Source: Candidatus Alloenteromonas pullistercoris (GTDB lineage Bacteria; Bacillota_I; Bacilli_A; RFN20; CAG-826). Taken from it: a stretch of 64,000 bases of DNA. The notes under the pieces are model-generated. The model did no database searches and was not told the DNA's origin. It saw only the letters and a program-made list of their open reading frames with translations. Positions within the stretch are counted from its first letter, which is position 1, and every line of letters starts with the position of its first letter. The position numbers and the translations under genes are program-made. Positions 45,634 through 61,484 of the stretch are shown here, in pieces. The stretch lies in contig JADINA010000039.1 in NCBI GenBank assembly GCA_017694295.1, positions 1 to 64,000 on the forward strand, read 5' to 3'.

Positions 45634-46545
45634 TTAGGCGCCGACGTAGGTGTCGAGGCCGGTGAAGCCTAGGACGACGTTGACGAGCCCGCCGTTGGCG
45701 GCGTCGGAGATGGCACAGGTACCTTCGAGCCAGATGGCGCAGGTGAGGTAGATGCTCTCGCCGCCTTTGATGGTCCCAACATAGGTCGAGACGTCGGTGG
45801 TGTTAGCCTCAACTCCTTTGCCGTCTTGATCCTCGATTGAGGGGATGGTGGCGATGGTCGAGTAGAAGTTCTCGGCGTCCGGTTCGGAATAGGTGGCAAG
45901 GGTTCCAGCGTCATCGACATACTTGTCATCGACGTCGCTGAGGTTGTCGTTGTTCATGAAGACGAGGTTCCCGGCCGAGGTGAGGTCGGTCATGGCGTGG
46001 GTGCCGGTCGCGGAAGCCTGCTTGGCGATGGCGACCCGAATCCAATCGGCCATGGCCTTGTCTTCGCTGTCATCGCTTTGGACCGGGTTGATCCGGGTGT
46101 TTTCCGGATCGAGGTAGACGTCAAGCGAGCCGATGCCTGATTCGGCGGTGTTGGTGATGGTCAGCGAGAACTGGACGAACCCGGTGTCGCCATTGTATGC
46201 GACATAGCCATCCGGGGTGTTGTCATCGCTGAAGGAGGAATTGCCGGAGGAGACGTAATCGGAATAGAAATAGGTCCCGTCTTTCGAGGAGAGGTCGATG
46301 AGGGGAGCGGACCCGAAGTTGGCGGTGGCCGAGGCGGTCCCGTTGCCGGTGGCCTCGTTTATCCCTTTGGGGTTGCCGATTGAGATCGCGAGGCTGCCGT
46401 TGGGGTTTTTGGCGGTGATGTTGCTGATGGAGGCGCTCGCGCTGCGGGAGGTGGTGAACCAGGCGTAGGTGGCGGTGGCCCCAGCGGCGACGGTGCCGAC
46501 GGTCAAGGCGCTGAGGGCGACGAGAAGTTTGCTTTTGGTTTTCAT
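45634..46545 (-). CDS. SipW-dependent-type signal peptide surface protein (TasA/camelysin-like)
   Basis: MKTKSKLLVALSALTVGTVAAGATATYAWFTTSRSASASI; start at 46545. Confidence 0.75.
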   Translation of the reverse strand: MKTKSKLLVALSALTVGTVAAGATATYAWFTTSRSASASISNITAKNPNGSLAISIGNPKGINEATGNGTASATANFGSAPLIDLSSKDGTYFYSDYVSSGNSSFSDDNTPDGYVAYNGDTGFVQFSLTITNTAESGIGSLDVYLDPENTRINPVQSDDSEDKAMADWIRVAIAKQASATGTHAMTDLTSAGNLVFMNNDNLSDVDDKYVDDAGTLATYSEPDAENFYSTIATIPSIEDQDGKGVEANTTDVSTYVGTIKGGESIYLTCAIWLEGTCAISDAANGGLVNVVLGFTGLDTYVGA

Positions 46546-46855
46546 GAAAAAGAAATCCTTTCGTTTTCGGCTCAAAATAGCCGGTGCGTCGGGATTCCAA
46601 TGGCTTTAACGTAACAACGCTAAATATGTTTGGGCAATGCTCCGCAAGTCCGGCTTTGGGCGAGCCGCTTCCTTGTTCGGCGAGGCTATGATACTAGGGG
46701 GAGGGAGGTTAATCAAGAGGGCAGTCAACAAAAATCGGCCTTCGCGCGGGCAAAGAACAAAGAAATGCCAAGCGTCGGCGAAACAATCTTTTTCTATTTA
46801 TCAGTTCGCCCCTTTGCTATAATTCGACCGAAACAAATGCTTTGAGGCCGGGAAG

Positions 46856-47242
46856 ATGGATAGGAAAAAGAAAATAACGCTGGCGGCGATCGGGGCGGTT
46901 AAGGCCGCGATCATCGTCTTCGGGCTCGTGGTGTCGATAATCGTCATCGCCACCTACATTTCCCCCGAGGAAAGCGGGGACTACCTGACGCAGAACGTCG
47001 CCGAGAACGGCCCGTTCATCGGCTGGCTGCAAAATAACCCCACCCCATTCTTCCTGCTCATAGTATTGCCACTATTGATAATCTTGGCCGCCGACATCGT
47101 CTATTTGGTCTATTTCGCCCTCAAGCGCGAATCCAAGCTAAGTGAGAAAGAACGCGACGCGATCGCCGAGAAAGCCAAAGAAGAGGCGAGGGCCGAATTG
47201 CTTAAGGAACTAGGCGAGGAGGAAAAAGGGCAAGGCAAGTAA
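46856..47242 (+). CDS. Small two-TM membrane protein with charged C-terminus
   Basis: ATG preceded by TATAAT-like box at 46817; two hydrophobic segments. Confidence 0.6.
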   Translation: MDRKKKITLAAIGAVKAAIIVFGLVVSIIVIATYISPEESGDYLTQNVAENGPFIGWLQNNPTPFFLLIVLPLLIILAADIVYLVYFALKRESKLSEKERDAIAEKAKEEARAELLKELGEEEKGQGK

Positions 47243-47296: not shown

Positions 47297-47326
47297 TTGA
47301 CATGCCCGCCTCCTCGCCTACAAAAT
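47297..47326 (+). promoter_or_regulatory. Putative promoter of riboswitch-1 operon
   Basis: TTGACA then TACAAAAT at 16-18 nt spacing. Confidence 0.55.
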
Positions 47327-47330
47327 AGCC

Positions 47331-47412
47331 GCGTGAAAAGCAAAGCCAGGGAAACCTGGCGGCGCAAAACTAAAGGGCCTACCCCGAATCGGAACGGCAG
47401 CCAGTTACCCCG
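47331..47412 (+). ncRNA. Cyclic di-GMP-I (GEMM) riboswitch aptamer 1
   Basis: AAAAGCAAAGCCAGGgaaaCCTGGCGGCGCAAAACTAAAGGGCCTA..GGCAGCCAGTTACC; P2 GCCAGG/CCTGGC with GAAA loop. Confidence 0.88.
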
Positions 47413-47570: not shown

Positions 47571-48548
47571 TTGGCCAAGGAAGACAAAATCAAAAAGCCG
47601 AAGGAGAAGAAGCCACGCAAGCAAGGCAAAGGCGAGAGCCTGCCGAAGATCGACGCCCCGGGGATGCTTGGTCAAAGCACGCCGGAGAAAGTCGCCAAAA
47701 GGCATAGGCGCCGCACCATCGCCGCTTTCGTGGCCTCGATAAGCTCCGCGGTTTTGATCGCATTATCGATCATCGCCTTTTTGGGCCGGGTTTCCGGCAA
47801 TTTCACCGTGACCATCGACCCCCGGGACTACACCAACCGCCTGACCCTGAGTCAAGGGATAGACGGATCGCGCACGCCGACGTTATTAGGCTCTGGCATC
47901 GAAAACGCCAAGCCGATCGCCGCAAGCGAGGTGTTCCGCTACCTCGAAAACGAGGTCTACCCGCTTCCGAAACAAGAGGCGGAGGGCTCGCATAACTACG
48001 AGGTCGGCGAGGGCGAGGAGCGAAGCGCCTACGCCATGGTCTACACCTTCTACCTCCACAACCAAACCGACGAAGAGCTGCCCTACCGGCATAGCTTCTT
48101 CATCGAGAGTTACAGCTCCCCGACCAACGACGCGCTTGAGCCATATGAGTATCTGCGCATCGCCCTTTACGTAAACGAGCCCGCCTCCTTCCCCGGGGAC
48201 GAGGAAACGCACGAAAAGGAAATATATGGGCTGGAATCGAATTACCCGGGCACGGGCGAGGGGGAAAACGACACGCGTGAATGCGTCTCCTCCTTCACTG
48301 GCCCAGTCGATGAAGACGGCAACCCGATAACCCGCTACCCCCGCACCGATTCGGGGGAGGAGAGTAGCGGCTATTGCACCCCCTTCATCGACTCCACCGG
48401 CCACATAATCGACGAAACCAGGACCATCCTCCCGCTGCAGACGCTCCGCTACACGGTCGTCGCCTGGCTTGAGGGCTTCGACCCCGAATGCCGGGGAAAG
48501 GCCCCCGAGGGGGCTTCCATGACTTTCCGGATGGAGTTCGACGCCTGA
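47571..48548 (+). CDS. Membrane-anchored surface protein of unknown function (TTG start)
   Basis: GGAGG SD at 47556-47560, TTG at 47571; TM RTIAAFVASISSAVLIALSIIAFLG followed by extracytoplasmic domain. Confidence 0.75.
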   Translation: MAKEDKIKKPKEKKPRKQGKGESLPKIDAPGMLGQSTPEKVAKRHRRRTIAAFVASISSAVLIALSIIAFLGRVSGNFTVTIDPRDYTNRLTLSQGIDGSRTPTLLGSGIENAKPIAASEVFRYLENEVYPLPKQEAEGSHNYEVGEGEERSAYAMVYTFYLHNQTDEELPYRHSFFIESYSSPTNDALEPYEYLRIALYVNEPASFPGDEETHEKEIYGLESNYPGTGEGENDTRECVSSFTGPVDEDGNPITRYPRTDSGEESSGYCTPFIDSTGHIIDETRTILPLQTLRYTVVAWLEGFDPECRGKAPEGASMTFRMEFDA

Positions 48549-49600
48549 TGGATAGTGACCTCAAGACGATAAAGAGCCTCCTTCTTTTAGGGGCCTCCGC
48601 CTTCATTTTCGCCCTAACCGGGGCCGGGGTCGCGACCTATGCCTTCTTCGACATATCGGAGGGGGCGAAGGTCAGCCACCTCGAATTCGGCGTCGATGGG
48701 GGCGGGTCGTTGCTGCTTGGGTTAAAGGAAAACCTAAGCGGCGATATAACCTATTACCAAGAAGTCGACGACGAAACGCTCTCCCGCCATTACCCGAGCT
48801 ACTCCCCGGGTGCCTCCTTGTCCCCGGTGTCCTCGATGATGCGGGACAGCTGGCTTCTCCCCTCCTTCGACCTAAATACCGGCTTCCCGGTGTTTTACGG
48901 GGATTATGGGGAATACGACGACCCAACCTCGCCCCGCGTCGCCAGGCAAGGCTATATCCAGTTCGAGGCCTATTTCCTTTCTGACGAAGACGGCTACCTC
49001 TACCTAGGTCAAGACACGGGGATAACCCCGCTAGAGGAGGAAAACCGGGCAAAAGAAGAGGAGAAAGAGCTCCCCGATGGGACGCTAGACAAGGTTGTCG
49101 AGGGGGTGAGAGTCTCCTTCCTCTCCTGCCTTGGCTATCAGATCCTCGATTGCCGCGGCGGGGAGAAGGCGACCTACGCCGGGCCGCTTGACATAAACGG
49201 GGACGGTTATCGGGAAATAGATTCCTCCGGGAGGGAAATACTCTATGGAGAATATGAGGGTGAGCCGGTATTCGGCGAACCGCTATCCGAAGAGGCCATA
49301 AACCCGGACGGAACCAAAAGCGCTAAGGGGAGCCGACCGCTACTTGAAGAGGAATCGGCGCAAAACGGATTGACGTTTGCCAAGGAAGAGAGCAAGACGC
49401 TTGAAGAGCTTACCAACCCAGGCACCACATCGACCGTCTCCGCCGCCCCGATAGCCAAGCTAAGCGCCAACGTCCCGGAAAGGACGGTCATCACCATCTA
49501 CCTCGAGGGATGGGATAAGGAGGTCAACGACCTCGTCGAGGACGGATCGTTCTCGCTTAAGCTCGAGTTCAACGCATTGCTAATGCCTTTATCGGCATAA
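48548..49600 (+). CDS. SipW-type signal surface protein
   Basis: LLLLGASAFIFALTGAGVATYAFFDISEGAKVSHLEFGV; ATG overlaps TGA of previous gene. Confidence 0.75.
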   Translation: MDSDLKTIKSLLLLGASAFIFALTGAGVATYAFFDISEGAKVSHLEFGVDGGGSLLLGLKENLSGDITYYQEVDDETLSRHYPSYSPGASLSPVSSMMRDSWLLPSFDLNTGFPVFYGDYGEYDDPTSPRVARQGYIQFEAYFLSDEDGYLYLGQDTGITPLEEENRAKEEEKELPDGTLDKVVEGVRVSFLSCLGYQILDCRGGEKATYAGPLDINGDGYREIDSSGREILYGEYEGEPVFGEPLSEEAINPDGTKSAKGSRPLLEEESAQNGLTFAKEESKTLEELTNPGTTSTVSAAPIAKLSANVPERTVITIYLEGWDKEVNDLVEDGSFSLKLEFNALLMPLSA

Positions 49601-49618: not shown

Positions 49619-51166
49619 ATGACCGCTTACTTCGATTACCTGAAGCACATGATAATTGAGTTTTTCACCAACTTTGGGCTGTTTTTCTACGACGTCTTTG
49701 CCGGGCCTTGGAAAAGGGTGCCCGCCGAGATCGACTACTACAACTCCCTTTATGCCAACTACTCCCCCGACTTCGGGGCGGGCGGATGGTTCTTCTTCGT
49801 CCTTTTCCTCCTTCTTTTGCTAGCCGCGCTGGCCGCTTTCGGATACCTTATATACTACCTTATCACCAAATACGTACATTTTAGGGCCAAAACCGAGGAC
49901 GTAGGCAAATACCGGAGCGAGATTGAGCGGCTCAACCTCGAGCTTTACCACGCGATATCCGAAAAGGACCGGGTCCTCGGGCTTCAGGTCGCCTCCTTAT
50001 CCGGTATCGCGCCCGTCTCTGAGGCAGGGAGCGCCAAAACCGAGAAAAAGGAAGAGGAAGGCGAAAAAGACGAAAGGCGCTTCCCCAAGCTTGCCAACGT
50101 CGACGCCGAATACCTCACCCCGATGCCGGCCACCAGGTTGCCAGATGACGCCGAGGGCATCGGCTTAAAGGGCATTTGCGAGCGCTTCCGCCTTTTCTGC
50201 GCCTCCCAGCTCGGCCTTTATTACACCATCGACACGATGCGCGAGTTCATCGCCTCGATCGGGACGAGCAAGATCATCATCCTCGAGGGCATCTCCGGCA
50301 CCGGCAAAACCTCCTTGCCCTACGCGTTTGGCCGCTTTTTGAAGCATAACGCCACCATCTGCTCGGTCCAGCCAAGCTGGCATGACCGCTCCGAGCTACT
50401 CGGCTATTACAACGACTTCACCCACCGCTTCACCGAGACCGAGTTCCTGCGGGCCGTATACGAGGCGACTTACCGCGACGACCTTTCCGTCATCGTCCTC
50501 GACGAGATGAACCTCGCCCGCATCGAATACTATTTCGCCGAGTTCCTCTCAATCATGGAAATGCCTAACGTCAGCGAGTGGAACATCTCGCTTGTCGCGG
50601 CCCCAAGGGAGGATGACCCGCGCCACCTTAACGAGGGGAGGCTCCTAATCCCGCAAAACATCGTCTTCGTCGGCACAGCCAATAACGACGACTCGACCTT
50701 CACCATCACCGACAAGGTCTACGACCGCTCGATGTCGCTTTTCTTCGACAACAAGGGCATCGCCTTCGAATCGGAATTCACCGAGGCCTGCCCCCTCCCC
50801 TACGACTATCTTTCCTCCCTTTTCGCCAAAGCCAAGGTCGATTACCCGCTTTCGGCGAAGACCCGGGAGAGGTTTGAGCAGCTAGACAGCTTCGTCATCG
50901 CCAAGTTCAAGCTGGCCTTCGGCAACCGCATACTCCGCCAGCTTGAATCCTTCGTCCCCTGCTATTGCGCCTGCGGCGGGACCGAGCTAGAGGCCGTCGA
51001 CTACATGTTTGAGTCGAAGATACTCAAGAAGTTCGAGGTTTTGAACGTCTCCTTCCTCCGCGATGAGCTGCTTGAGCTCGATACCGAGCTAAGCAAGCTT
51101 TTCGGCAAAGGGGAGTTCAAGCGGAGCAAAGCCAAGATAAGGGGGTTCCTCAAGCAGGTGTCCTGA
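49619..51166 (+). CDS. Membrane-anchored McrB-like AAA+ ATPase
   Basis: N-terminal TM; Walker A EGISGTGKTS; Walker B VIVLDEMNLARIEYYFAEFL; GTANNDDSTFTITDKVYDRS. Confidence 0.85.
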   Translation: MTAYFDYLKHMIIEFFTNFGLFFYDVFAGPWKRVPAEIDYYNSLYANYSPDFGAGGWFFFVLFLLLLLAALAAFGYLIYYLITKYVHFRAKTEDVGKYRSEIERLNLELYHAISEKDRVLGLQVASLSGIAPVSEAGSAKTEKKEEEGEKDERRFPKLANVDAEYLTPMPATRLPDDAEGIGLKGICERFRLFCASQLGLYYTIDTMREFIASIGTSKIIILEGISGTGKTSLPYAFGRFLKHNATICSVQPSWHDRSELLGYYNDFTHRFTETEFLRAVYEATYRDDLSVIVLDEMNLARIEYYFAEFLSIMEMPNVSEWNISLVAAPREDDPRHLNEGRLLIPQNIVFVGTANNDDSTFTITDKVYDRSMSLFFDNKGIAFESEFTEACPLPYDYLSSLFAKAKVDYPLSAKTRERFEQLDSFVIAKFKLAFGNRILRQLESFVPCYCACGGTELEAVDYMFESKILKKFEVLNVSFLRDELLELDTELSKLFGKGEFKRSKAKIRGFLKQVS

Positions 51167-51175
51167 TAGAAAACC

Positions 51176-53329
51176 ATGGCTGGGCGTCATTCGTTGCAAT
51201 TGGCCGGGAGGGCCTACTTCAAGAAGCTGGAGTCGCTACTAAAGACTTCAAAGTCTTTCGAAGCGCTCAAAAACACCCTCCAAGGCGAGAAAAGCACCTA
51301 CATCGCCCAGAAGAGCCGCCTTGAGGAGAAGACGCTGGACGACACCTTCATCATCGAGCTCGAGAAGGGGGTGGCCGCCATCGAGAAGATCACCCGCAAC
51401 CCCCGCAGCTTCATAAAAGACGAAGACGTCGTGGTTGAGGCGGGAAGGGCGAAGCGGATATCCTCAAGGACGGTTAGCCACTTGGCCTCCCACACCCAAT
51501 TCGTCCATTCCGTCGACGAGAAGGGCAACGTCACCCCCGAGAAGCTGCTCGTCCCCGAATCCGACATCGACTATTGGATTTACGAGAACAGGTTTTTGAT
51601 GACCCTCATCAACAAAGCCTCAGTGTTCGTCGAGAAGCGCTTCCTCTTCGTCAAAGACCATGGCGAGACCCGCGATTCCGAGGTGTTGCTCCTGCATACC
51701 CTTTCCGAGGTTGCCGGGGTGAGGTTTGAAGTCGACACCCGGGTCAAGGTTAGCGCCTTAAGCAAAGACGGCGGGCAGGCGGAGAAAAACGACAGGCTAT
51801 TGCTGCGCTTAGCCAAGCTGCGCGAGCGGCTCGCCTTCCTTTCCTCCTCGCCCTTCATGCAGCTGATGAGGGGCGCCAAAAGCGTCGCCAACCCAATCCA
51901 CCCGACCAACCTCCTCGTCAAGCACCCCGACTACAAAAAGGCCCTTCGCCTTTGGAAGTTCATCGATTCGTATAAAGAGCTTGGCATCTCCTATTCGGTT
52001 AGCGAATCGAACAAGAAGTTCAAAGAGGATTACGTAACGAAGCTCATGGCCTTGCTTTCGGAGTCGATATTGACCCTAGAGGCCAACCTTATCGAGAAAG
52101 ACGAGATCAAGCCCAAGAAAAAGAAAAAGAAGATCGTCCCGAAGGTCATCTTCTCCCTTGAGGACGAGACTTTCTACGACGGCCGTTTCCTCTATGACCA
52201 ATTCCCGATGGAAGAAAGGGAAAGGACCACCCCGATGTCCCCGACCGAGGAGGAGGCGAGGCAATACCGCGAGCAGTTCGAAAGGAAGATCAAATCCGAT
52301 CGGGCCAAGCGGGCCATCGTCGAGGCCGAGATCGAAAGGGCCAAGGAAAAAGACGTCGAGGAGGAGGCCAAAGCGAGAAGAAGGGAGCAGGAAAAGCGGA
52401 GGCAAGAAGAGGAACGCCAAGCCGCGGTAAGAAGGCTTGAGCTCGAAAGAGCCAAGCTCGAGGCCGAGAAGAAGAGCCTTGAGGACATAAGAAACCGGGA
52501 AAAGGAGGAGCTTGAGAAGCTCCGCCTCACCAGGATCGAGGTATTCCGCCTCGGACGAAGCGACAGAGGGCCTTTGGACATGCCCTCGGCCGACAGCACC
52601 CCCTACCCCGACCAAAAGCCCTATGAGCGGCCCGGCGGACTCATCATGGCCGATGACTCCGGATTGCCCGAAGGCATTGTTGAGGAAGAGGATAAGCCAA
52701 GCATCGTCGAGGGCATCGACATCGAAGAGCAAGGCGAGGCCATCCCCACTTTCGAGGTGGGCATTGAAAAGGCAAGCGAAACCCCCAATATAGAGGAAAA
52801 TAAACAAGGGGCCATAAAAGAGCCAAAAACCGAAGAAAAGGAAAGCAAGCTCAAGGCAAAACAAAAGAAGGCGGCGCCCAAGGCGAAAAAAGCCCCAAGC
52901 AAGGACAAGGAAAAGCCGGAAAAGAGCGAAAAGAAGCGGAAACCCACCAAAAAGGCGGTAAAGAAGGAAATAGATAAGGAAAAGGAAAATGAGGTTACCA
53001 AGCCCGTTCCTTTGCCTATTGAATCCGATAATGAACAAAAGAGGATAGAGGCGGAAAAGAAAGAAGAGAAGCCTATAGAGCCAGCTGAGCCAAGCCCCGC
53101 GCCCAAGGAAGAGGAAAAGGCAGCGGAGTCTAGCAAAGAGGAAAGCAAAGCCGTGCCGCCTAAGCGGAAAAAAGGCAAAGCCGCCAGGAAAGCCAAGAAG
53201 GATGAGGAGAGGGCGAAGAAGGAAGAGGAAGAGAGGCAAACGCCCCACTTCACCACCCTCAAAACCCGTTCCAAACGCGGCGGGCGGAGCTTTGTCAAGG
53301 ACTACGCGAAAAACCGGAGGAAGGGATAG
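51176..53329 (+). CDS. DUF2357-like protein with long K/E-rich C-terminus
   Basis: SDIDYWIYENRFLMTLINKASVFV; HPTNLLVKHPDYKKALRLWKFIDSY; adjacent to McrB-like ATPase; coiled-coil and KE-rich tail. Confidence 0.65.
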   Translation: MAGRHSLQLAGRAYFKKLESLLKTSKSFEALKNTLQGEKSTYIAQKSRLEEKTLDDTFIIELEKGVAAIEKITRNPRSFIKDEDVVVEAGRAKRISSRTVSHLASHTQFVHSVDEKGNVTPEKLLVPESDIDYWIYENRFLMTLINKASVFVEKRFLFVKDHGETRDSEVLLLHTLSEVAGVRFEVDTRVKVSALSKDGGQAEKNDRLLLRLAKLRERLAFLSSSPFMQLMRGAKSVANPIHPTNLLVKHPDYKKALRLWKFIDSYKELGISYSVSESNKKFKEDYVTKLMALLSESILTLEANLIEKDEIKPKKKKKKIVPKVIFSLEDETFYDGRFLYDQFPMEERERTTPMSPTEEEARQYREQFERKIKSDRAKRAIVEAEIERAKEKDVEEEAKARRREQEKRRQEEERQAAVRRLELERAKLEAEKKSLEDIRNREKEELEKLRLTRIEVFRLGRSDRGPLDMPSADSTPYPDQKPYERPGGLIMADDSGLPEGIVEEEDKPSIVEGIDIEEQGEAIPTFEVGIEKASETPNIEENKQGAIKEPKTEEKESKLKAKQKKAAPKAKKAPSKDKEKPEKSEKKRKPTKKAVKKEIDKEKENEVTKPVPLPIESDNEQKRIEAEKKEEKPIEPAEPSPAPKEEEKAAESSKEESKAVPPKRKKGKAARKAKKDEERAKKEEEERQTPHFTTLKTRSKRGGRSFVKDYAKNRRKG

Positions 53330-53332
53330 CAG

Positions 53333-54160
53333 ATGGTTAGGAAATGGGCCTCGCGCCTAGTCACCCTCTTCCTCCTCCTTTTGGTGGGCTTTGTCGGCTA
53401 TTGCCAGGTGTCGATGGTCGTGACGATGAACAAAAACTATGGGGTCCCGAGCGTCTTCGGCTACTCCTTCCTCTACGTCGCCACCGACTCGATGGAGGGC
53501 GACCTCCCCGACTCCCTCCCCGTCGGCACCGGCATCGTCATCCAAGACGTCGACCCCCATTCGATCGCCCCCGGGGACGTCATCACCTTCTATTATCCGG
53601 CCATCAAGGCCCCCGACACCCACCGAGTCCATGAGATAACCGAGGACGAAGACGGACATTTAACCTTCTACACCCGCGGCGACAACCTTAACGCCCAGCT
53701 GTCCAACGGGCAATGGGACGAAAACTATAGGGAAATCGTCCCCCAGGAGCATTACATCGGCAAGGTCGTTAGCCACTCCAAGGCCTTCGGCATCTTCCTC
53801 ACCTACGTCTCCCCCCAAGTGCCAAGCGACCACAACCACGCCAGGTGGCTTTTCCCCCTGCTCGTCATCTTGCCACTCGCCATCTGCGCCGCCATCACCA
53901 TCGCCTCGACGGTGAGGCAGCTTCGCAAGGAGAAAAAAGAGGAAAAGGCTGCTTTGCTTAAGGCGATGGAGGAAGAGGGCATCGACCAAACCGACGAGTC
54001 GCAGGTTTTCTCCTTTGAAGAGAAGTGGCGCTTCAAAAAGGAACTCCGCGAGCAATATGCGGAAGAAAAGGAAAAAGAGAGGAAGAGGCTGCTTAAAGAC
54101 ATGAAAAGGAAAAGGAAAAGCGAGGCCGAGGGGCCTATAATCAGGGAGGAAAAGCAATGA
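53333..54160 (+). CDS. sipW: Signal peptidase I, ER/SipW type
   Basis: YVATDSMEGDLPDSLPVGTGIVIQDV...GDVITFYYP...DTHRVHEI (Ser-His type); C-terminal TM. Confidence 0.85.
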   Translation: MVRKWASRLVTLFLLLLVGFVGYCQVSMVVTMNKNYGVPSVFGYSFLYVATDSMEGDLPDSLPVGTGIVIQDVDPHSIAPGDVITFYYPAIKAPDTHRVHEITEDEDGHLTFYTRGDNLNAQLSNGQWDENYREIVPQEHYIGKVVSHSKAFGIFLTYVSPQVPSDHNHARWLFPLLVILPLAICAAITIASTVRQLRKEKKEEKAALLKAMEEEGIDQTDESQVFSFEEKWRFKKELREQYAEEKEKERKRLLKDMKRKRKSEAEGPIIREEKQ

Positions 54161-55734
54161 GGAAAAGCATCATGGCCTATAGCGGCCTACTAGTCGCCTC
54201 CCTCTTCCTTTTGGGGCTAAACATCGGCTTCCTCCTTTTCATCCTCCTCATCCCCCTTTCCAGGGGCGAGGCGGTTGAAGGCGATAGGCTCGCCGCCTGC
54301 CTTTCCCTTTCCCTTACCGAGGTCGTCTTCGTCTTCCTTTCGGCCTTCTTCCTCCACCGCCGCCTAGTCTTGGGGCGGAAAAGGGAATTCCTGCTTGGAA
54401 GGTTTGGGGAAGCTAACGACATCTTGCTGGAATCGGAGATGGCCAAAGCCTTCGATCGCCTTAAGGGGGAAGGCAAGCAAAAACGCTTCGCCGTCGCCCT
54501 CAACATCCTCGGGCCCGATAGCCAAATGCTTTCCTCCTTCCAAGACGAGGTCAGGAGGAAAACCCTCCGTTTCGTCTATAACTGCCTTAAAGTCAATTTC
54601 CCCCTCGACCCAATCGGGATAAACGAGTCAAACGAGTTCCTCCTCGCCCACCTAGACGAGGACATGGAGGGCTTTTCCGCCGAGCTTCGCCGCTTCGCCT
54701 CCGGGCTAAGCGACTACTTCTCCCATAGCGGAGCCATCCCCTTTGCCACCATCCTCTTCGGCTTAAGCCAAAAGGGGGCGGAGGAAGGCAAGGCGGGGGT
54801 CGCCGCCTTCGAGGAGGCCGAATACGCCCTCCGCCACAACTCCAAAGCCCGCCTTAGCGGCGACGTCCTCCCCTTTAGCCACGACCTCATCGACCAAGAC
54901 GCCTCGATCCATTGGCTCGATCAAGACTTGGCGGGCGCGATAAACCGAGGCGAGTTCATCGTCTATTACCAAGGCAAAGTCGATTTGAAGACCGGCTCCT
55001 TCTACGGGGCCGAGGCCCTCATCAGGTGGAAGCACCCCCACCGCGGCATCCTCCCCCCAAGCGTCTTCGTCCCCTATTGCGAATCTAGCGGCAAAATCGT
55101 CGAGATCGACCATTTCGTCTTCAAATCGGTTTGCAAGACGCTTTCGAAATGGAAGGAAGACCCCGCCCTATGCCGCCTCATCGTCTCAGTCAACCTCTCC
55201 CGCCGCACCGTCTACGACCCCGATCTTCTTCCCTTTTTGGCCAAGACGACCGCTGAATACGGGGTCGACCCAAGCCAAATGGAAATCGAGCTGACCGAAT
55301 CGCTCGCGGCCGAGAACCTCGTCTTCATCTCCTCGGTCATCAGGAAGATAAAGGCGATGGGCTTCAAGACAAGCATCGACGACTTCGGCATCGGCTATTC
55401 CTCCCTTTCGGCGTTAAAGTCGATCCCCTATGACGTCTTGAAGATCGACAAGACCTTCATCGACGACATCGAGATCGGCGGCAAGTCGAAGGCGATGGTG
55501 AGCTCGATCGTGAGCTTGGTGCACGCCCTGGGGATGAAAGTCATCGCCGAGAGGGCCGAGTCGATGAGCCAGGTCGCCATCCTCTCCACCCTCGGGGTCG
55601 ACGCCGTCCAGGGCTATTACTTCTCCCGCCCCGTCGACCGGGCCCGCTTCGAGGTGCTCATAAACGAGGACAACAGGCGGAAGAAAGAGGAAAAAGCGAA
55701 GAAGAAGGAAAGCGCGAAGGAGGCAAAGGCATGA
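54157..55734 (+). CDS. EAL-domain c-di-GMP phosphodiesterase with degenerate GGDEF and N-terminal TMs
   Basis: GAEALIRWKHP, VSVNLSRRT, IELTES, SIDDFGIGYSSLSALKSIPYDVLKIDKTFI, QGYYFSRP; GGDEF position reads NESNEF. Confidence 0.92.
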   Translation: MRKSIMAYSGLLVASLFLLGLNIGFLLFILLIPLSRGEAVEGDRLAACLSLSLTEVVFVFLSAFFLHRRLVLGRKREFLLGRFGEANDILLESEMAKAFDRLKGEGKQKRFAVALNILGPDSQMLSSFQDEVRRKTLRFVYNCLKVNFPLDPIGINESNEFLLAHLDEDMEGFSAELRRFASGLSDYFSHSGAIPFATILFGLSQKGAEEGKAGVAAFEEAEYALRHNSKARLSGDVLPFSHDLIDQDASIHWLDQDLAGAINRGEFIVYYQGKVDLKTGSFYGAEALIRWKHPHRGILPPSVFVPYCESSGKIVEIDHFVFKSVCKTLSKWKEDPALCRLIVSVNLSRRTVYDPDLLPFLAKTTAEYGVDPSQMEIELTESLAAENLVFISSVIRKIKAMGFKTSIDDFGIGYSSLSALKSIPYDVLKIDKTFIDDIEIGGKSKAMVSSIVSLVHALGMKVIAERAESMSQVAILSTLGVDAVQGYYFSRPVDRARFEVLINEDNRRKKEEKAKKKESAKEAKA

Positions 55735-56450
55735 TTCTCATCATCGGCGAAAACGAAGACGCCATCCTCTATCTGCGTTCCCGCCTTGTCGACGAGCGTA
55801 AGGAAGTCGTCTTCCCCTCGCTCCAGGTATATCGGGGAAGGATGGGCAACGAGGAGGCGGCCATCGCCTCAATCGGCATCGGGCTCCCATTAGTCGCCAT
55901 AAACGTCGATAACCTGCTTCGGAAATACGAGCCCTACTTGGTTTTCAACGTCGGCTCCGTCGGGGCGATTAAGCCCTCCCTCCACCAAGGGGACGTCTTG
56001 ATCGCGGAACGTTATTACGCCCATGGCATCGACTATTCCGGGGACGGGAAAAACGTATACGGGCAGCTAAACGGCCTTCCGCCCTTCTTCGTCGCCGACA
56101 TGGGGCTATGCGCAAGCGCCGAGAAGGCGGCCTACGAGATCGGGGGACATTACGTCGAGAGGGGGTCGCTTCTTTCCTCCGACATCAGGATCTACGACGA
56201 TAAGCCGGTTTTTGACGATCTGCAAAGGCGCTTTGCCGGCAATTCGCGCCTCACCTGCCTCGATAACTGCTCCTACGCCATCGCGCTTTCTTGCTACTTG
56301 CATAACGCCTCCTTGCTAACCGTCAAATCCGTCAACTACGAATCGGGGGAGGAGTCGCAGCGGCTCAACTTCCGCCGCAAGGGGCTTGAGCTCATGCCCT
56401 TCGTCGGCAAAGTCGTCTCGGCGGTGTTGCTCCGCAACTCCAAAATCTAG
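55731..56450 (+). CDS. Nucleoside phosphorylase/MTA-SAH nucleosidase superfamily protein
   Basis: VVFPSLQVYRGRMGNEEAAIASIGIGLPLVAINVDNLL; LVFNVGSVGAIKPSLHQGDVLIAERYYAHGID. Confidence 0.8.
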   Translation: MILIIGENEDAILYLRSRLVDERKEVVFPSLQVYRGRMGNEEAAIASIGIGLPLVAINVDNLLRKYEPYLVFNVGSVGAIKPSLHQGDVLIAERYYAHGIDYSGDGKNVYGQLNGLPPFFVADMGLCASAEKAAYEIGGHYVERGSLLSSDIRIYDDKPVFDDLQRRFAGNSRLTCLDNCSYAIALSCYLHNASLLTVKSVNYESGEESQRLNFRRKGLELMPFVGKVVSAVLLRNSKI

Positions 56451-56490: not shown

Positions 56491-56518
56491 TTGCCAAGCG
56501 CCGGCAAACTTGTAAAAT
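56491..56518 (+). promoter_or_regulatory. Putative promoter of riboswitch-2 operon
   Basis: TTGCCA -16 nt- TAAAAT. Confidence 0.6.
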
Positions 56519-56523
56519 AGACC

Positions 56524-56604
56524 TTGTCAAAGGCAAACTTAGGGCGACCTAGGGGCGCAAAACTAAAGGGCCTCACGCAGGCAGCCAGCTACCGCAAATG
56601 ACAA
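56524..56604 (+). ncRNA. Cyclic di-GMP-I (GEMM) riboswitch aptamer 2
   Basis: TTGTCA AAGGCAAACTTAGGgcgaCCTAGGGGCGCAAAACTAAAGGGCCTCACGCAGGCAGCCAGCTACC..TGACAA; P1 TTGTCA/TGACAA, P2 with GCGA loop. Confidence 0.92.
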
Positions 56605-56605
56605 C

Positions 56606-59581
56606 ATGGACAGCCGGCAGAAAGCGCATAAAAGCCCAAAGGGGGCGAAAACCGCCCTCTTTTTCGCCTGCCTTGCCTCCTTCTTCTCCCTTACCCTTGG
56701 GCTAGGCGGAGTTACCTTAGCCGCCTATTTAAACGCCGTCGAGGCCAAGGAAAACGCCATCCTCGACTTCAATGACCTTAGCTCCTACTTCGCCAGGGTC
56801 GAGGAAAACGATGGCGAAAGGGTTTTCCACCTTAATGACGAAACCCATCTTCAAAACCTGCAAAGGCTCGTTTCCATCGGTTTGTTTGGCCCTAGCGACA
56901 CCTTCGTCCTCGATAACGACATCTCCTGCACCGGCACACTTTACCCAATCGGGACCGACGACATGCCCTTCGACTCCACCTTCAACGGCAACGGCCACGT
57001 CATCTCCAATTTGCACGTCATATGCGCGGATGGGCGCGACGCCGGGCTTTTCGGCTACACCTCGATCAACTCCAGCGTCAAAAATCTCATCCTAAGCGCC
57101 CCAAAAATCGAGGTGACCGCAAATTCCAACGATTTCAACGACGACGGGAAAGGCATATCGGGCTCCCCCATAGAGAAGACCTATGGCCCGTTGGCGTCCC
57201 TTATGCCGGAAATCAACTTCGTTAGCCAGGATAACATGGCCGTCGACGGCAGGATAAACGTCAAAAATGGGACCCAACCCGGGCAGACCGCCGTCATCAC
57301 GGGTTTCCCCGATAGCCTAAGCTCCGGGGAAGCCGAGGTCGAAATACTTTACGAATCCAGCGACGAAAACCTATTAACGCTTACCCAAACCACCGACGGC
57401 TACCAGGCCGAGTGCAAACCCAACCCCGAATCCAACGCCCCGAACTTCGACCTTTACCCGGTAACGGTCGACGCCAAGGCGCAATACGAGGTTAACGGGG
57501 TGTTCGGCTATTACGTGCTTGAGCGTTACCAGTTCAACATCCTCGGCAACGGCAACGTCTCGACCGCCGTGACCGAGATAGACGACCCCGACGACGAAAG
57601 CGACAATCCGGTCCAGATAACCGTCCATTCCGGGGCGTTTAAGACCATCCACCCCGATTACGATGAGCATAACCTCAACGTCGGCTTCTTCATCGGCCAT
57701 TGCGACGGCTCGGCCAACCACCTCGGCCTTTACGGGGGCAACACCAACTCAACCGGCCAAAACGGGACCATCGTCATCAACTCCGACTCCCGCGTAAGCG
57801 CCTATTCGGCCAGGACGCTAATCGGCAAGACCAGGAAAGACAACCCGGTCGACGCCTCCGCCGGGGACACGATGAACATCATCTACGATTACCGTGGGGC
57901 CATCAACGGCACCCCCGACCAAAACGGGCTCATCCACGATTTCGAGCTGAAGGTTAAAGACTACGAATACGGGCATGCAAACTTTGGATCGGGCTATGGC
58001 TTTGGCTCATCGATTAGCGACTACTCCAATAACGGCAGCCCCGATCAGCCGGTGACCGATTCCGATTCCCTCAAGCAGCAGCAAAACGCCGAAACCATGA
58101 CCGAAAACGTCGTGACCAACCCATCGATGAGGGAATACTCCTCCTTCTACCCGGGTACCAACCAAACGCTTGCCGACTCCACCACCGAGGCCTATAAGCC
58201 ATCCTCAAGCAACTGGGAGGTCGGGGAATACTCCGATAACGCCGACACCGCCGAAAGCGATCCCGGCAGCTTCAACGCCCAGGTCATAGACGGCGGCCTT
58301 GGTGCCGGGACGTGGACGAAGCTAAACGAATTCATCAAGCAATATTGGTTCCTGGGGACTTATACTTACCATCATCAGCTTCGCCTAACTCGGGGATACA
58401 ACATCAACAACGGCTTCAAGATCTGGTCGACCAAAAACCTTTCGCCGATCTTCACCGAGAACCTCTTCTACATTAATTTCCATGTCTCCTACGTCGCGAC
58501 CCGCAAAAAGGGGACGGCCGAGAACCAAAATAGCTTTCAGATACTGTTCAATTCCTACAACCCAGAGGTCCGGGGCTATGACAAATGGTCGTTGGGAGAT
58601 TTAGTCGGCTACAATCCCTACCCCGATGAATGGACGTCCTCTTATTTGCAATACCTTTTCTGGCAGGACCTATCCAACCCCCAAAACGTCGACTTCACCG
58701 ACGGCGGCCAGCTCAATGCGCTATATAACCCTGCCGACCATCCGATCATCGACGACGGCAAGCTCCATAGCGACGTCATCACCTTGACCATCGACCAGCA
58801 AAACGGCACTTGGTGGAGCAACGCGTTCCAGTCGATCCGTAATTGGTGGAAAGATCTTTGGAACGGGGGAAGCGAGGAGCAAACCGAAAACCGCGAGGCC
58901 CGTTACCCGATGTTCGCCTTCGGCATGGGATCCAACGTCCGCCCCAATGGCGGAATCTATGCCTCCGAGGACCATCAATCAACCGCGAATTACTACGCCG
59001 ACTTGATTTATGATGAAAACCAGCAGACATATCAAAATTCGCGCTTCGTCAACTCCGCGGTTCCCGGAAGCACGATCGCCGACTTAAGGGGAACCCGCCT
59101 ATTTGACTCCGATAACGGCGCCTACCAAACCTATGCCCCGTCGGGAAGCAGCGAGGAAGGCTGGGTCGGGACAGCTTTTGGCAGCGGCAACCACTATAAC
59201 GACAGCGTGCGAGGATATTACAACAATCAGGAACGCGGCTATTTCAATTCCTACTTCAAGGTCGAAAACGGCACCAAGCTTTACATCCGCGACTTCCAGA
59301 TCACCTTCACCAACCGGCTTGGCAACACCGAGGACATCATCTACAAAGTCGACTTCGTCCCAAACACCGACCTAGGCTTCGACGAGAACTCGCAAACCTG
59401 GAACGCCTGGCCGGACGATAGCAACGTCCAGATCGGCTTTAACATGGAAAAAACCGACGGCGGGGTCAATTTCCGCTTCTACAGGGACAATAGCAACAAC
59501 GTCTACGGTTATTACAGCAACGCCGCCTATTCGCTTACCAACAACTCCGGATACGACGACGCGATTTTGGCGCAGGGGTAA
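56606..59581 (+). CDS. Large secreted/membrane surface protein with GLUG-like segment
   Basis: TM ALFFACLASFFSLTLGLGGVTLAAYLNAVEAKENAI; DSTFNGNGHVISNLHV..AGLFGYT..SVKNLIL. Confidence 0.75.
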   Translation: MDSRQKAHKSPKGAKTALFFACLASFFSLTLGLGGVTLAAYLNAVEAKENAILDFNDLSSYFARVEENDGERVFHLNDETHLQNLQRLVSIGLFGPSDTFVLDNDISCTGTLYPIGTDDMPFDSTFNGNGHVISNLHVICADGRDAGLFGYTSINSSVKNLILSAPKIEVTANSNDFNDDGKGISGSPIEKTYGPLASLMPEINFVSQDNMAVDGRINVKNGTQPGQTAVITGFPDSLSSGEAEVEILYESSDENLLTLTQTTDGYQAECKPNPESNAPNFDLYPVTVDAKAQYEVNGVFGYYVLERYQFNILGNGNVSTAVTEIDDPDDESDNPVQITVHSGAFKTIHPDYDEHNLNVGFFIGHCDGSANHLGLYGGNTNSTGQNGTIVINSDSRVSAYSARTLIGKTRKDNPVDASAGDTMNIIYDYRGAINGTPDQNGLIHDFELKVKDYEYGHANFGSGYGFGSSISDYSNNGSPDQPVTDSDSLKQQQNAETMTENVVTNPSMREYSSFYPGTNQTLADSTTEAYKPSSSNWEVGEYSDNADTAESDPGSFNAQVIDGGLGAGTWTKLNEFIKQYWFLGTYTYHHQLRLTRGYNINNGFKIWSTKNLSPIFTENLFYINFHVSYVATRKKGTAENQNSFQILFNSYNPEVRGYDKWSLGDLVGYNPYPDEWTSSYLQYLFWQDLSNPQNVDFTDGGQLNALYNPADHPIIDDGKLHSDVITLTIDQQNGTWWSNAFQSIRNWWKDLWNGGSEEQTENREARYPMFAFGMGSNVRPNGGIYASEDHQSTANYYADLIYDENQQTYQNSRFVNSAVPGSTIADLRGTRLFDSDNGAYQTYAPSGSSEEGWVGTAFGSGNHYNDSVRGYYNNQERGYFNSYFKVENGTKLYIRDFQITFTNRLGNTEDIIYKVDFVPNTDLGFDENSQTWNAWPDDSNVQIGFNMEKTDGGVNFRFYRDNSNNVYGYYSNAAYSLTNNSGYDDAILAQG

Positions 59582-59586
59582 AGGCG

Positions 59587-60537
59587 ATGGGCAAAGGCAA
59601 AAGGAACCTCATAATCTCAATCGCGGCCTCATTGCTCGCGACCTTTTCCCTTTCTGTTGCGACCTACGCCTGGTTTTTGACAAGCCTCAAGGCCAACCCC
59701 GAGCAGCTCATCCTCAATAGCGGAGTCTCCTCCGTCTACGTCGACATGATGGGCTATGCCTGCTCGCTTCGCGGCAACCCCTCTTCCTCCACCTCTGGGC
59801 AAATAAGCGAGCCCAACGGCCTTTCGATCGACCGAAGCGGGGACATCGAAGTCTACGGCGGCACCCAATCGACCTCGACCGCCACCGTCCACGCCTCCTT
59901 CCTCACCCAGATAGACACCTACGACTACCTAAGCCTTTCCCAAGGCGAAGTCGGGCTGAGCCGGGACTATCTGCCCCGGGTTTACCTCGCCCTTCAATAC
60001 TCCCAGGATAACGTGGGAGGGTATGTAAGAGCCTATCTAGGCGAACTAAACGAGGCGGGAGACGGCTTGACGGGGAGCTTAAGCATAACGATGGGCGACC
60101 AAGCGCTTTCTGGCTACCTTCGGGTCGCCAATAAGCTCGAAAGCGCCCAATCCATCGCCGCTTCCGGACAAAGCGACATGATCGACTATTACGATACCGG
60201 ATCCCTCTCCTTCCCCGCTTCATGGGAAGGCGTCCTCGCCTCAGAGGCCTCTCCGCTTTATTCCTCCTCTAGCGAGCCGGCCCAGCTTTATGTGCCGGCG
60301 CTACAAACCCAGCTTGGCGGGGAGCTTTGCTATTCGGTGGGGTCGCTACTGGAGATCTCGGTCGACCCGTTCCAGTTCTATTCCGCCCTCCTTTCCATTT
60401 CCGCCTCCAACCCATTGGAGGTTTCTAAGATCGCGATATCCTTCTCCTTCTCGCTCTACCTTACCTATTCCAACGCCCCCTTTGAGTCGTCCCCGGGGGT
60501 CGAATACCCGATAATCAGCTTGGAGGAAGGGGCATGA
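59587..60537 (+). CDS. SipW-type signal surface protein
   Basis: LIISIAASLLATFSLSVATYAWFLTSLKANPEQLIL. Confidence 0.75.
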   Translation: MGKGKRNLIISIAASLLATFSLSVATYAWFLTSLKANPEQLILNSGVSSVYVDMMGYACSLRGNPSSSTSGQISEPNGLSIDRSGDIEVYGGTQSTSTATVHASFLTQIDTYDYLSLSQGEVGLSRDYLPRVYLALQYSQDNVGGYVRAYLGELNEAGDGLTGSLSITMGDQALSGYLRVANKLESAQSIAASGQSDMIDYYDTGSLSFPASWEGVLASEASPLYSSSSEPAQLYVPALQTQLGGELCYSVGSLLEISVDPFQFYSALLSISASNPLEVSKIAISFSFSLYLTYSNAPFESSPGVEYPIISLEEGA

Positions 60538-61484
60538 AAGGCAAGTTCTCCAAGTCGCTCATATTGCTTTGCCTGCCCCCGCTAAGCTGCCTTGGGGCTT
60601 TAGGCGTCGCGACCTACGCCTGGTTTTCCTCCTTCAGGTCGGCCGAGGCCAACGTCAACAGCATCCGCGTGGAGGCCCCCGGATTCGACGAATACGGCCT
60701 TTATTGCCTATCCATCAACAAACCCGCGGGAGCCGAGGTTTATTCCGGATACCCCGATTACGCCTCCTTAGACGACGGCTCAAAGGCGAGCCGGATCTCG
60801 GGAAACGGCGACTTCATCGAGATAACCGATGGGTCGGAGGCCGCCTTGATGGAGGATATGTTCCCCCTATCGTGCTTCACCTTCGCCTTGTTCTTAGGCG
60901 AATCCGACTTCACCTCGTTCCAAATCGGCATCGAAACCTCCTCCTCGCCTTCCGCCTCCAATTACGTTGAGGTCATAAGGGGCGGGCAAGCGACCTACGA
61001 AAGGGTCGTCCTCGCCGGGGCCATCGACGTCTATTCGAAAACCATCCCCCTAGCGGAGGGGGAATACGCCCCCGGGGCCTTGAATCTAAGCGAGTCGACC
61101 ATCGCGAAGGTCAATTCCTTCATCACGACCGAGATGGGGGCGCTTGGAAGCTACCCCAACGTCACTAGGGAGGACCGCTTCGCCTTTAGCCAAAGCGAGG
61201 AGCAGGAGCCGGTTTCCTCTTCCCCCTACCGCCTTAATCGCGCCCTCACTGACGACGTCATAACCCAAGGGGCCGATTATCTAGTCCTATTCACCGTCGA
61301 GTTCTCCGACCTGCCCTCGACCCACATGTCGCCTTTATCTAACGTCGAAGGCGGGATCGAGGGAGCGTCTTATTGGCGTTATGACGAGTCCAGCAACCTT
61401 TCCACCGCCTATCAGGGGCTAAGCTTCGTTATTGATTCAGTTTCCGTCGTCGGCGGGTTTTTAAACGAAGGAGGCAGCATATGA
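60534..61484 (+). CDS. SipW-type signal surface protein
   Basis: LILLCLPPLSCLGALGVATYAWFSSFRSAEANVNSIRV; ATGA overlap with previous gene. Confidence 0.75.
   Translation: MKGKFSKSLILLCLPPLSCLGALGVATYAWFSSFRSAEANVNSIRVEAPGFDEYGLYCLSINKPAGAEVYSGYPDYASLDDGSKASRISGNGDFIEITDGSEAALMEDMFPLSCFTFALFLGESDFTSFQIGIETSSSPSASNYVEVIRGGQATYERVVLAGAIDVYSKTIPLAEGEYAPGALNLSESTIAKVNSFITTEMGALGSYPNVTREDRFAFSQSEEQEPVSSSPYRLNRALTDDVITQGADYLVLFTVEFSDLPSTHMSPLSNVEGGIEGASYWRYDESSNLSTAYQGLSFVIDSVSVVGGFLNEGGSI

Follow-up and report, generated by a model that had tools for sequence, protein, structure and literature searches.

What is a pair of genes related to the McrBC restriction system doing in the middle of an operon for surface proteins? 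The question is raised by a stretch of 64,000 nucleotides from Candidatus Alloenteromonas pullistercoris (positions 1 to 64,000 of contig JADINA010000039.1, assembly GCA_017694295.1; henceforth the window), in which two tightly spaced open reading frames occupy exactly positions 49619-53329, as an earlier, sequence-only reading had placed them. They encode a membrane AAA+ nucleoside triphosphatase (NTPase) of 515 amino acids and a DUF2357 protein of 717 amino acids, the first ending at 51166 and the second starting at 51176, both on the + strand, where all features described below lie unless stated otherwise. We consider it probable that the pair derives from McrBC, has lost the nuclease and belongs to the class named CoCoPALM, serving a surface-protein module that is induced by cyclic diguanosine monophosphate (c-di-GMP), and the narrower conclusion that it is not a DNA restriction system is well supported.

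The first gene (49619-51166) encodes a membrane-anchored McrB-type protein, with a Pfam AAA_5 match that exceeds the cut-off and McrB structures (6hz4, 6ut6, 7vsr) as its closest PDB relatives. Its Walker A (GISGTGKTS, residues 224-232, 50288-50314), Walker B (LDEMNLA, residues 294-300, 50498-50518) and GTPase-type NxD motif (GTANNDDST, residues 352-360, 50672-50698), together with DKVYDRS, a putative arginine finger, are near-invariant among 16 homologues of 42-82% identity (Walker A invariant), which bears out the intact Walker motifs of the sequence-only reading. A GTANxDDST-type motif recurs in 120 of 121 related ATPases and is the NxD form by which Bell et al. 2024 (PMC11090510) define one branch of McrB. 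The N-terminal membrane segment that had likewise been proposed is a single strongly hydrophobic, predicted transmembrane helix at about residues 58-79 (49790-49855; mean hydropathy up to 2.65), followed by a charged linker and the McrB-type NTPase domain, and a comparable segment is present in 119 of the 121 relatives. No modified-DNA-binding domain of McrB was found by Pfam in this N-terminus, which consists of the helix and charged linker only.

The partner gene (51176-53329) carries DUF2357, the N-terminal domain of McrC (E=3e-8, above the Pfam cut-off), and the ENRF and HPTNLL motifs by which the domain had first been recognised fall inside this region. An AlphaFold model spanning residues 1-480 (predicted local distance difference test, pLDDT, 89; C-terminal 254 residues outside the model) shows a mixed DUF2357 fold up to residue 306 (51176-52093), a weak linker and a single coiled-coil helix of about 105 residues (358-463; 52247-52564), beyond which lies a charged, variable tail rich in K, E and P (residues 464-717, 52565-53326), so that the earlier description of the remainder as coiled coil plus K/E-rich tail was accurate. 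The top PDB match of the model is McrC (6hz4_M, probability 0.94, E=0.04), all other listed matches having probabilities below 0.25. A PD-(D/E)XK nuclease of the McrC type, which the sequence-only reading had failed to see, was not found by Pfam, motif conservation or structure modelling either: Pfam detected DUF2357 in 13 of 20 partner homologues and a nuclease domain in 0 of 20, an alignment of 82 sequences held no conserved acidic/ExK set beyond DUF2357 (conserved acidic and lysine positions being mostly within that region), and the model of residues 1-480 contained no nuclease fold. A hidden nuclease was rejected after these searches. Matches of the DUF2357 profile to PvuII (E=6e-5) cover a short helix motif only (profile positions 250-281) and were judged chance local matches, the remaining ones in the same region being coiled-coil artefacts. 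Partner homologues range from about 400 to more than 2300 residues, the tail after DUF2357 varying among close relatives from almost nothing to about 2000 residues (e.g. in loci L072, 2331 aa, and L047, 1596 aa), and one homologue presented a POLO_box match.

The operon in which the pair is embedded begins with a c-di-GMP-I riboswitch aptamer (47329-47412; 63 bits, E=5.9e-10) and continues with S1, a conserved membrane/exported protein (47571-48548), S2, a protein with a SipW-type signal peptide (GVATYAFF; 48548-49600) that adjoins the ATPase in Erysipelotrichaceae-type loci, the ATPase and DUF2357 genes, a SipW/archaeal-type signal peptidase I (53333-54160; SipW 1.8e-14, TIGR02228 above cut-off), a membrane EAL-domain c-di-GMP phosphodiesterase (54157-55734; E=4.8e-66, EAL motif present) and a methylthioadenosine/S-adenosylhomocysteine (MTA/SAH) nucleosidase-like protein (55731-56450; TIGR01704 above cut-off). 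Downstream of the latter are a second c-di-GMP-I aptamer (56522-56596; 52.9 bits, E=1.7e-7), a large exported surface protein of 991 residues (56606-59581) and two proteins with SipW-type signal peptides (VATYAWF in both; 59587-60537 and 60534-61484). The genes adjoin or overlap by a few bases. With both the first aptamer and the SipW-like peptidase real, the setting had rightly been called a riboswitch-driven surface operon next to SipW.

The same arrangement recurs widely. Our genome scan yielded at least 545 relatives, of which the best 80 belong to Bacilli, Clostridia, Lachnospiraceae, Christensenellaceae, Anaeroplasma and Acholeplasma; the cultured A. granularum ATCC 19168 is one of them and carries the operon. 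In 74 of 79 named loci the neighbourhood contains proteins with SipW-type signal peptides or related surface genes; a DUF2357 gene occurs in 72, a signal peptidase in 69 and an EAL gene in 41, most of the missing neighbours being due to short or cut contigs. Of 136 proteins encoded beside the ATPase at 11 loci, 20 matched SipW models and 14 matched EAL phosphodiesterase models. The ATPase class is present at E<=1e-70 in 17 of 149 genomes sampled from the phylum, a few of these being paralogue or partial matches. Phylogenetic analysis set the operon-linked ATPases on one side of a branch (SH-like approximate likelihood ratio test, SH-aLRT, 88), apart from an ABC-transporter-linked class (SH-aLRT 100), an ATPase-DUF2357-ATPase class and defence-type relatives.

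The aptamers suggest how the operon is controlled. Both exceed the Rfam gathering score for c-di-GMP-I (35 bits), and the first reaches 80 bits with a covariance model built from 16 aptamers, which identified 82 sites in 85 sources, 80 of them outside the window. The only c-di-GMP-I riboswitches in the genome of the window are the two of this operon, a pattern shared by at least four relatives. By the S1, S2 and TasA-like profiles used for labelling downstream genes, which are broad, 78 of the 80 relatives' aptamers are followed within 700 bases, on the same strand, by a gene of the S1, SipW-substrate-like, signal-peptidase or large-surface kind, the next gene belonging to the S1 family in 50 of the 80. 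In 61 genomes the operon-type ATPase and the riboswitch occurred both together in 29, neither in 22, and one without the other in 5 and 5 (Fisher p=2.7e-7, kinship uncorrected). Despite fragmented assemblies, 32 of 71 aptamers in these genomes are within 16 kb of an ATPase gene; for the more contiguous assemblies the figure is 23 of 27. As to the direction of the switch, we counted as an ON-type terminator any stem of 8 or more pairs that is accompanied by a T run and takes the 3' strand of the aptamer as its 5' arm. Such a terminator occurs in 46 of 78 leaders as against 6.7% of mononucleotide-shuffled leaders; ligand binding would block a terminator that uses this strand, and such leaders are therefore predicted ON switches.

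Several other features accompany these elements. A divergent gene (45634-46575, - strand) for a protein with a SipW-type signal peptide (ATYAWF) is kept beside the operon in relatives, and a small membrane protein (46856-47242) is conserved just upstream of the riboswitch. Promoter-like hexamers sit directly before both aptamers (TTGACA-18-CAAAAT at 47297-47326, 3 bases before the first; TTGCCA-16-TAAAAT at 56491-56518 before the second); these are consensus matches only, and the number of such sites in the region is not above that in shuffles. Most Erysipelotrichaceae-type operons retain the nucleosidase-like gene, flanked by the EAL gene on one side and the surface protein on the other. In some loci c-di-GMP-I aptamers stand in tandem before a single gene, about 115-165 bases from each other (L127 6184-6422, L103, L118, L095, L109, L116, L124, L126, L128), and Acholeplasma and Clostridia loci (L127 2373-6154 and alike) have two GGDEF/EAL proteins upstream of the riboswitches and not one EAL gene within the operon.

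The pair fits the CoCoPALM class of Bell et al. 2024 (PMC11090510) and is thus not a first sighting. It shares with that class an NTPase of the NxD group with McrB as best PDB relative, a coiled coil in the McrC homologue and a linked signal peptidase; its N-terminal part, a transmembrane helix and then a charged stretch, may correspond to the FtsB-like transmembrane and coiled-coil segment to which the GTPase of the class is fused. The class was named in a few sentences, without functional study, and left for a later paper; c-di-GMP, TasA and SipW each have 0 occurrences there (PMC11090510). What is new is the nuclease-loss test, the likely SipW-type substrates and the control by c-di-GMP riboswitches: across Bacilli, Clostridia and Acholeplasmatales, c-di-GMP-I riboswitches precede a conserved operon that combines the pair with SipW-type peptidases, EAL/GGDEF enzymes and proteins bearing SipW-type signal peptides. 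Within the open-licence literature the term CoCoPALM is used in this sense only by PMC11090510 and its preprint, and no paper connecting SipW operons with c-di-GMP riboswitches came up there (one under subscription may exist), the co-mentions of such a riboswitch with a signal peptidase looking unrelated by title and abstract. Compared with the Type IV McrBC of E. coli, the pair retains the AAA+ McrB core and the DUF2357 activator fold but lacks the modified-DNA-binding domain and the PD-(D/E)XK nuclease, has a membrane anchor and sits in a surface operon instead of a defence island. With CoCoNuT systems (Bell et al. 2024) it has the NxD-type McrB and coiled coils in common, whereas HEPN, CSD and nuclease accessory domains were not seen in Pfam scans and the neighbourhood is another. 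The tapA-sipW-tasA operon of Bacillus likewise has a SipW-type signal peptidase and fibre-type substrates with a similar signal peptide, but it is devoid of a McrBC-like pair and is under SinR, not a c-di-GMP riboswitch (PMC13082335).

Loss of the nuclease, a membrane anchor and a place in operons for exported surface proteins under c-di-GMP together indicate that the pair probably acts in building the cell surface and not against viruses. Its most likely role is that of a c-di-GMP-induced, membrane-bound NTPase for the export or assembly of surface fibres. High c-di-GMP would lead to binding by the aptamer, block terminator formation and turn the operon on, and the EAL protein would feed back by destroying the messenger. 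The NTPase may assemble into a hexamer on the inner side of the membrane; the McrC DUF2357 domain is known to interact with the McrB hexamer and stimulate it (PMC11090510), and the partner could similarly sit in the pore and stimulate hydrolysis. Motion driven by NTP would then be relayed by the membrane helix, the long helix of the DUF2357 protein or both, and might drive or organise the export, maturation or polymerisation of fibre-like proteins. That the NTPase works as a motor, and for which step, is what we infer from the mechanics of McrBC; where the sequence-only reading had proposed a secretion, assembly or remodelling motor in place of DNA restriction, the rejection of restriction stands on the missing nuclease and the homologues in surface operons, while the motor stays conjectural. 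Broader still, and held only as a tentative possibility, is the idea that CoCoPALM as a whole would be a distinct NTP-driven machine for surface export or fibre assembly, derived from a restriction system that has been disarmed, turned on by c-di-GMP via RNA and common to gut Bacilli, Clostridia and wall-less Acholeplasmatales.

Not everything speaks for a role in fibre export or assembly. The identity of the exported proteins as fibres, plausible as it is, comes from the type of their signal peptides and from weak fold matches: the S2 model (pLDDT 88.7) has as its first PDB match, a weak one, the Sulfolobus 0406 archaeal filament (7pnb, E=0.056, probability 0.35), with the TasA fibre 8aur at rank 26. 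The profile of S2 gave no PDB sequence match, and family models fail to recognise the operon's exported proteins; a TasA assignment of S2 on the basis of its profile was not upheld. The TasA/SipW systems of Bacillus work without such an ATPase (none is described in PMC13082335), and no experiment or paper connects the pair with export. The single clade of operon-linked ATPases is only moderately supported at SH-aLRT 88. Five Acholeplasma-type loci (L112, L123, L128, L131, L139) have the ATPase without an adjacent DUF2357 gene; the assemblies of L131 and L123 also contain a locus with one (L124, L126), so that two ATPases may share a single activator. Finally, neither of the two leaders in the window passes the strict terminator test, so that ON logic at the window itself is something we infer. 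In the first leader CAGTTACC can pair with GGGCAACTG, the T run lying further downstream, and folding the leader as a whole was uninformative (z=-0.9).

The alternative that survives best, although we think it unlikely, is that the pair forms a membrane-bound scaffold that places export and fibre machinery at certain cell sites. Long helices and variable charged tails suit scaffolding, Bell et al. note a resemblance between FtsB, a protein of the divisome, and the N-terminal part of CoCoPALM GTPases (PMC11090510), and PcdA of Staphylococcus aureus shows an McrB NTPase co-opted for a cell-envelope task, binding FtsZ and DivIVA in the choice of the division plane (PMC10602043). According to the accessible part of that source, however, PcdA has EVE domains and neither a membrane helix nor a DUF2357 partner, and is thus no close analogue, and the invariance of all NTPase motifs indicates that cycling matters.

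Rather improbable, in our estimate, is that the complex still serves defence as a membrane-tethered, Type IV-like sensor of phage nucleic acid acting through an unseen effector, and is in a surface operon by chance or as a guard. Its descent from McrBC and the naming of the class alongside restriction systems (PMC11090510) point that way, as does a match of the AAA core to the PADLOC candidate PDC-M26A (E=2.6e-39). This match, however, covers in its best stretch 121 of 724 model positions and is stronger in a defence-type relative (L041); with no whole-model match and no match of the partner, membership in PDC-M26, on which the open-licence literature search returned nothing, fails, and the hit to the AAA core was rejected as proof of defence. 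Neither a nuclease nor another toxic domain was found by Pfam in the 20 homologues or in the model. Defence genes do not recur near the relatives, PADLOC matches among neighbours being single or double and generic (of the FtsH, helicase and TldD kind), and a synteny with SipW, exported proteins and EAL that is kept across several lineages, under c-di-GMP control, is unlike defence. The homologues lie in surface-protein operons and not in defence islands.

Least probable of all is a quality-control AAA+ that, instead of building fibres, remodels the translocon and extracts from the membrane SipW precursors that have stuck or misfolded. Its place on the cytosolic side of the membrane, in the company of signal peptidases and numerous secreted substrates, could be cited in favour, but no substrate-binding or protease domain was seen by Pfam, among PDB relatives or in the model, and McrB-type AAA+ proteins are not known to be protein unfoldases.

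Other membrane McrB-type proteins came to light beside the operon-linked ones. A second class (about 600 aa) with its own DUF2357 partner forms a fully supported clade (L043, L035-L039, L042) and is accompanied by exported proteins, an ABC ATPase and permease, and a large membrane protein, a gene set that recalls gliding-type ABC systems; the genome of the window has one member (locus L043, G000:C33, 4000-13000), and the partner in L035 has a zinc-ribbon-like C-terminal part. In a third arrangement, two related membrane ATPases flank one DUF2357 gene (L032 6393-10774; L033 8099-12704) next to large exported or lipoprotein-like genes.

A named but unexplained offshoot of McrBC thus gains a concrete and testable job, in a c-di-GMP-controlled surface module and not in immunity. 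Genes that are not for defence may be counted in defence catalogues where these call such AAA cores (PDC-M26A). If true, this would be a clear example of defence machinery redirected to the construction of the cell surface, and would offer a directly assayable c-di-GMP output for wall-less bacteria of the Acholeplasma type and for uncultured Bacilli of the rumen and gut.

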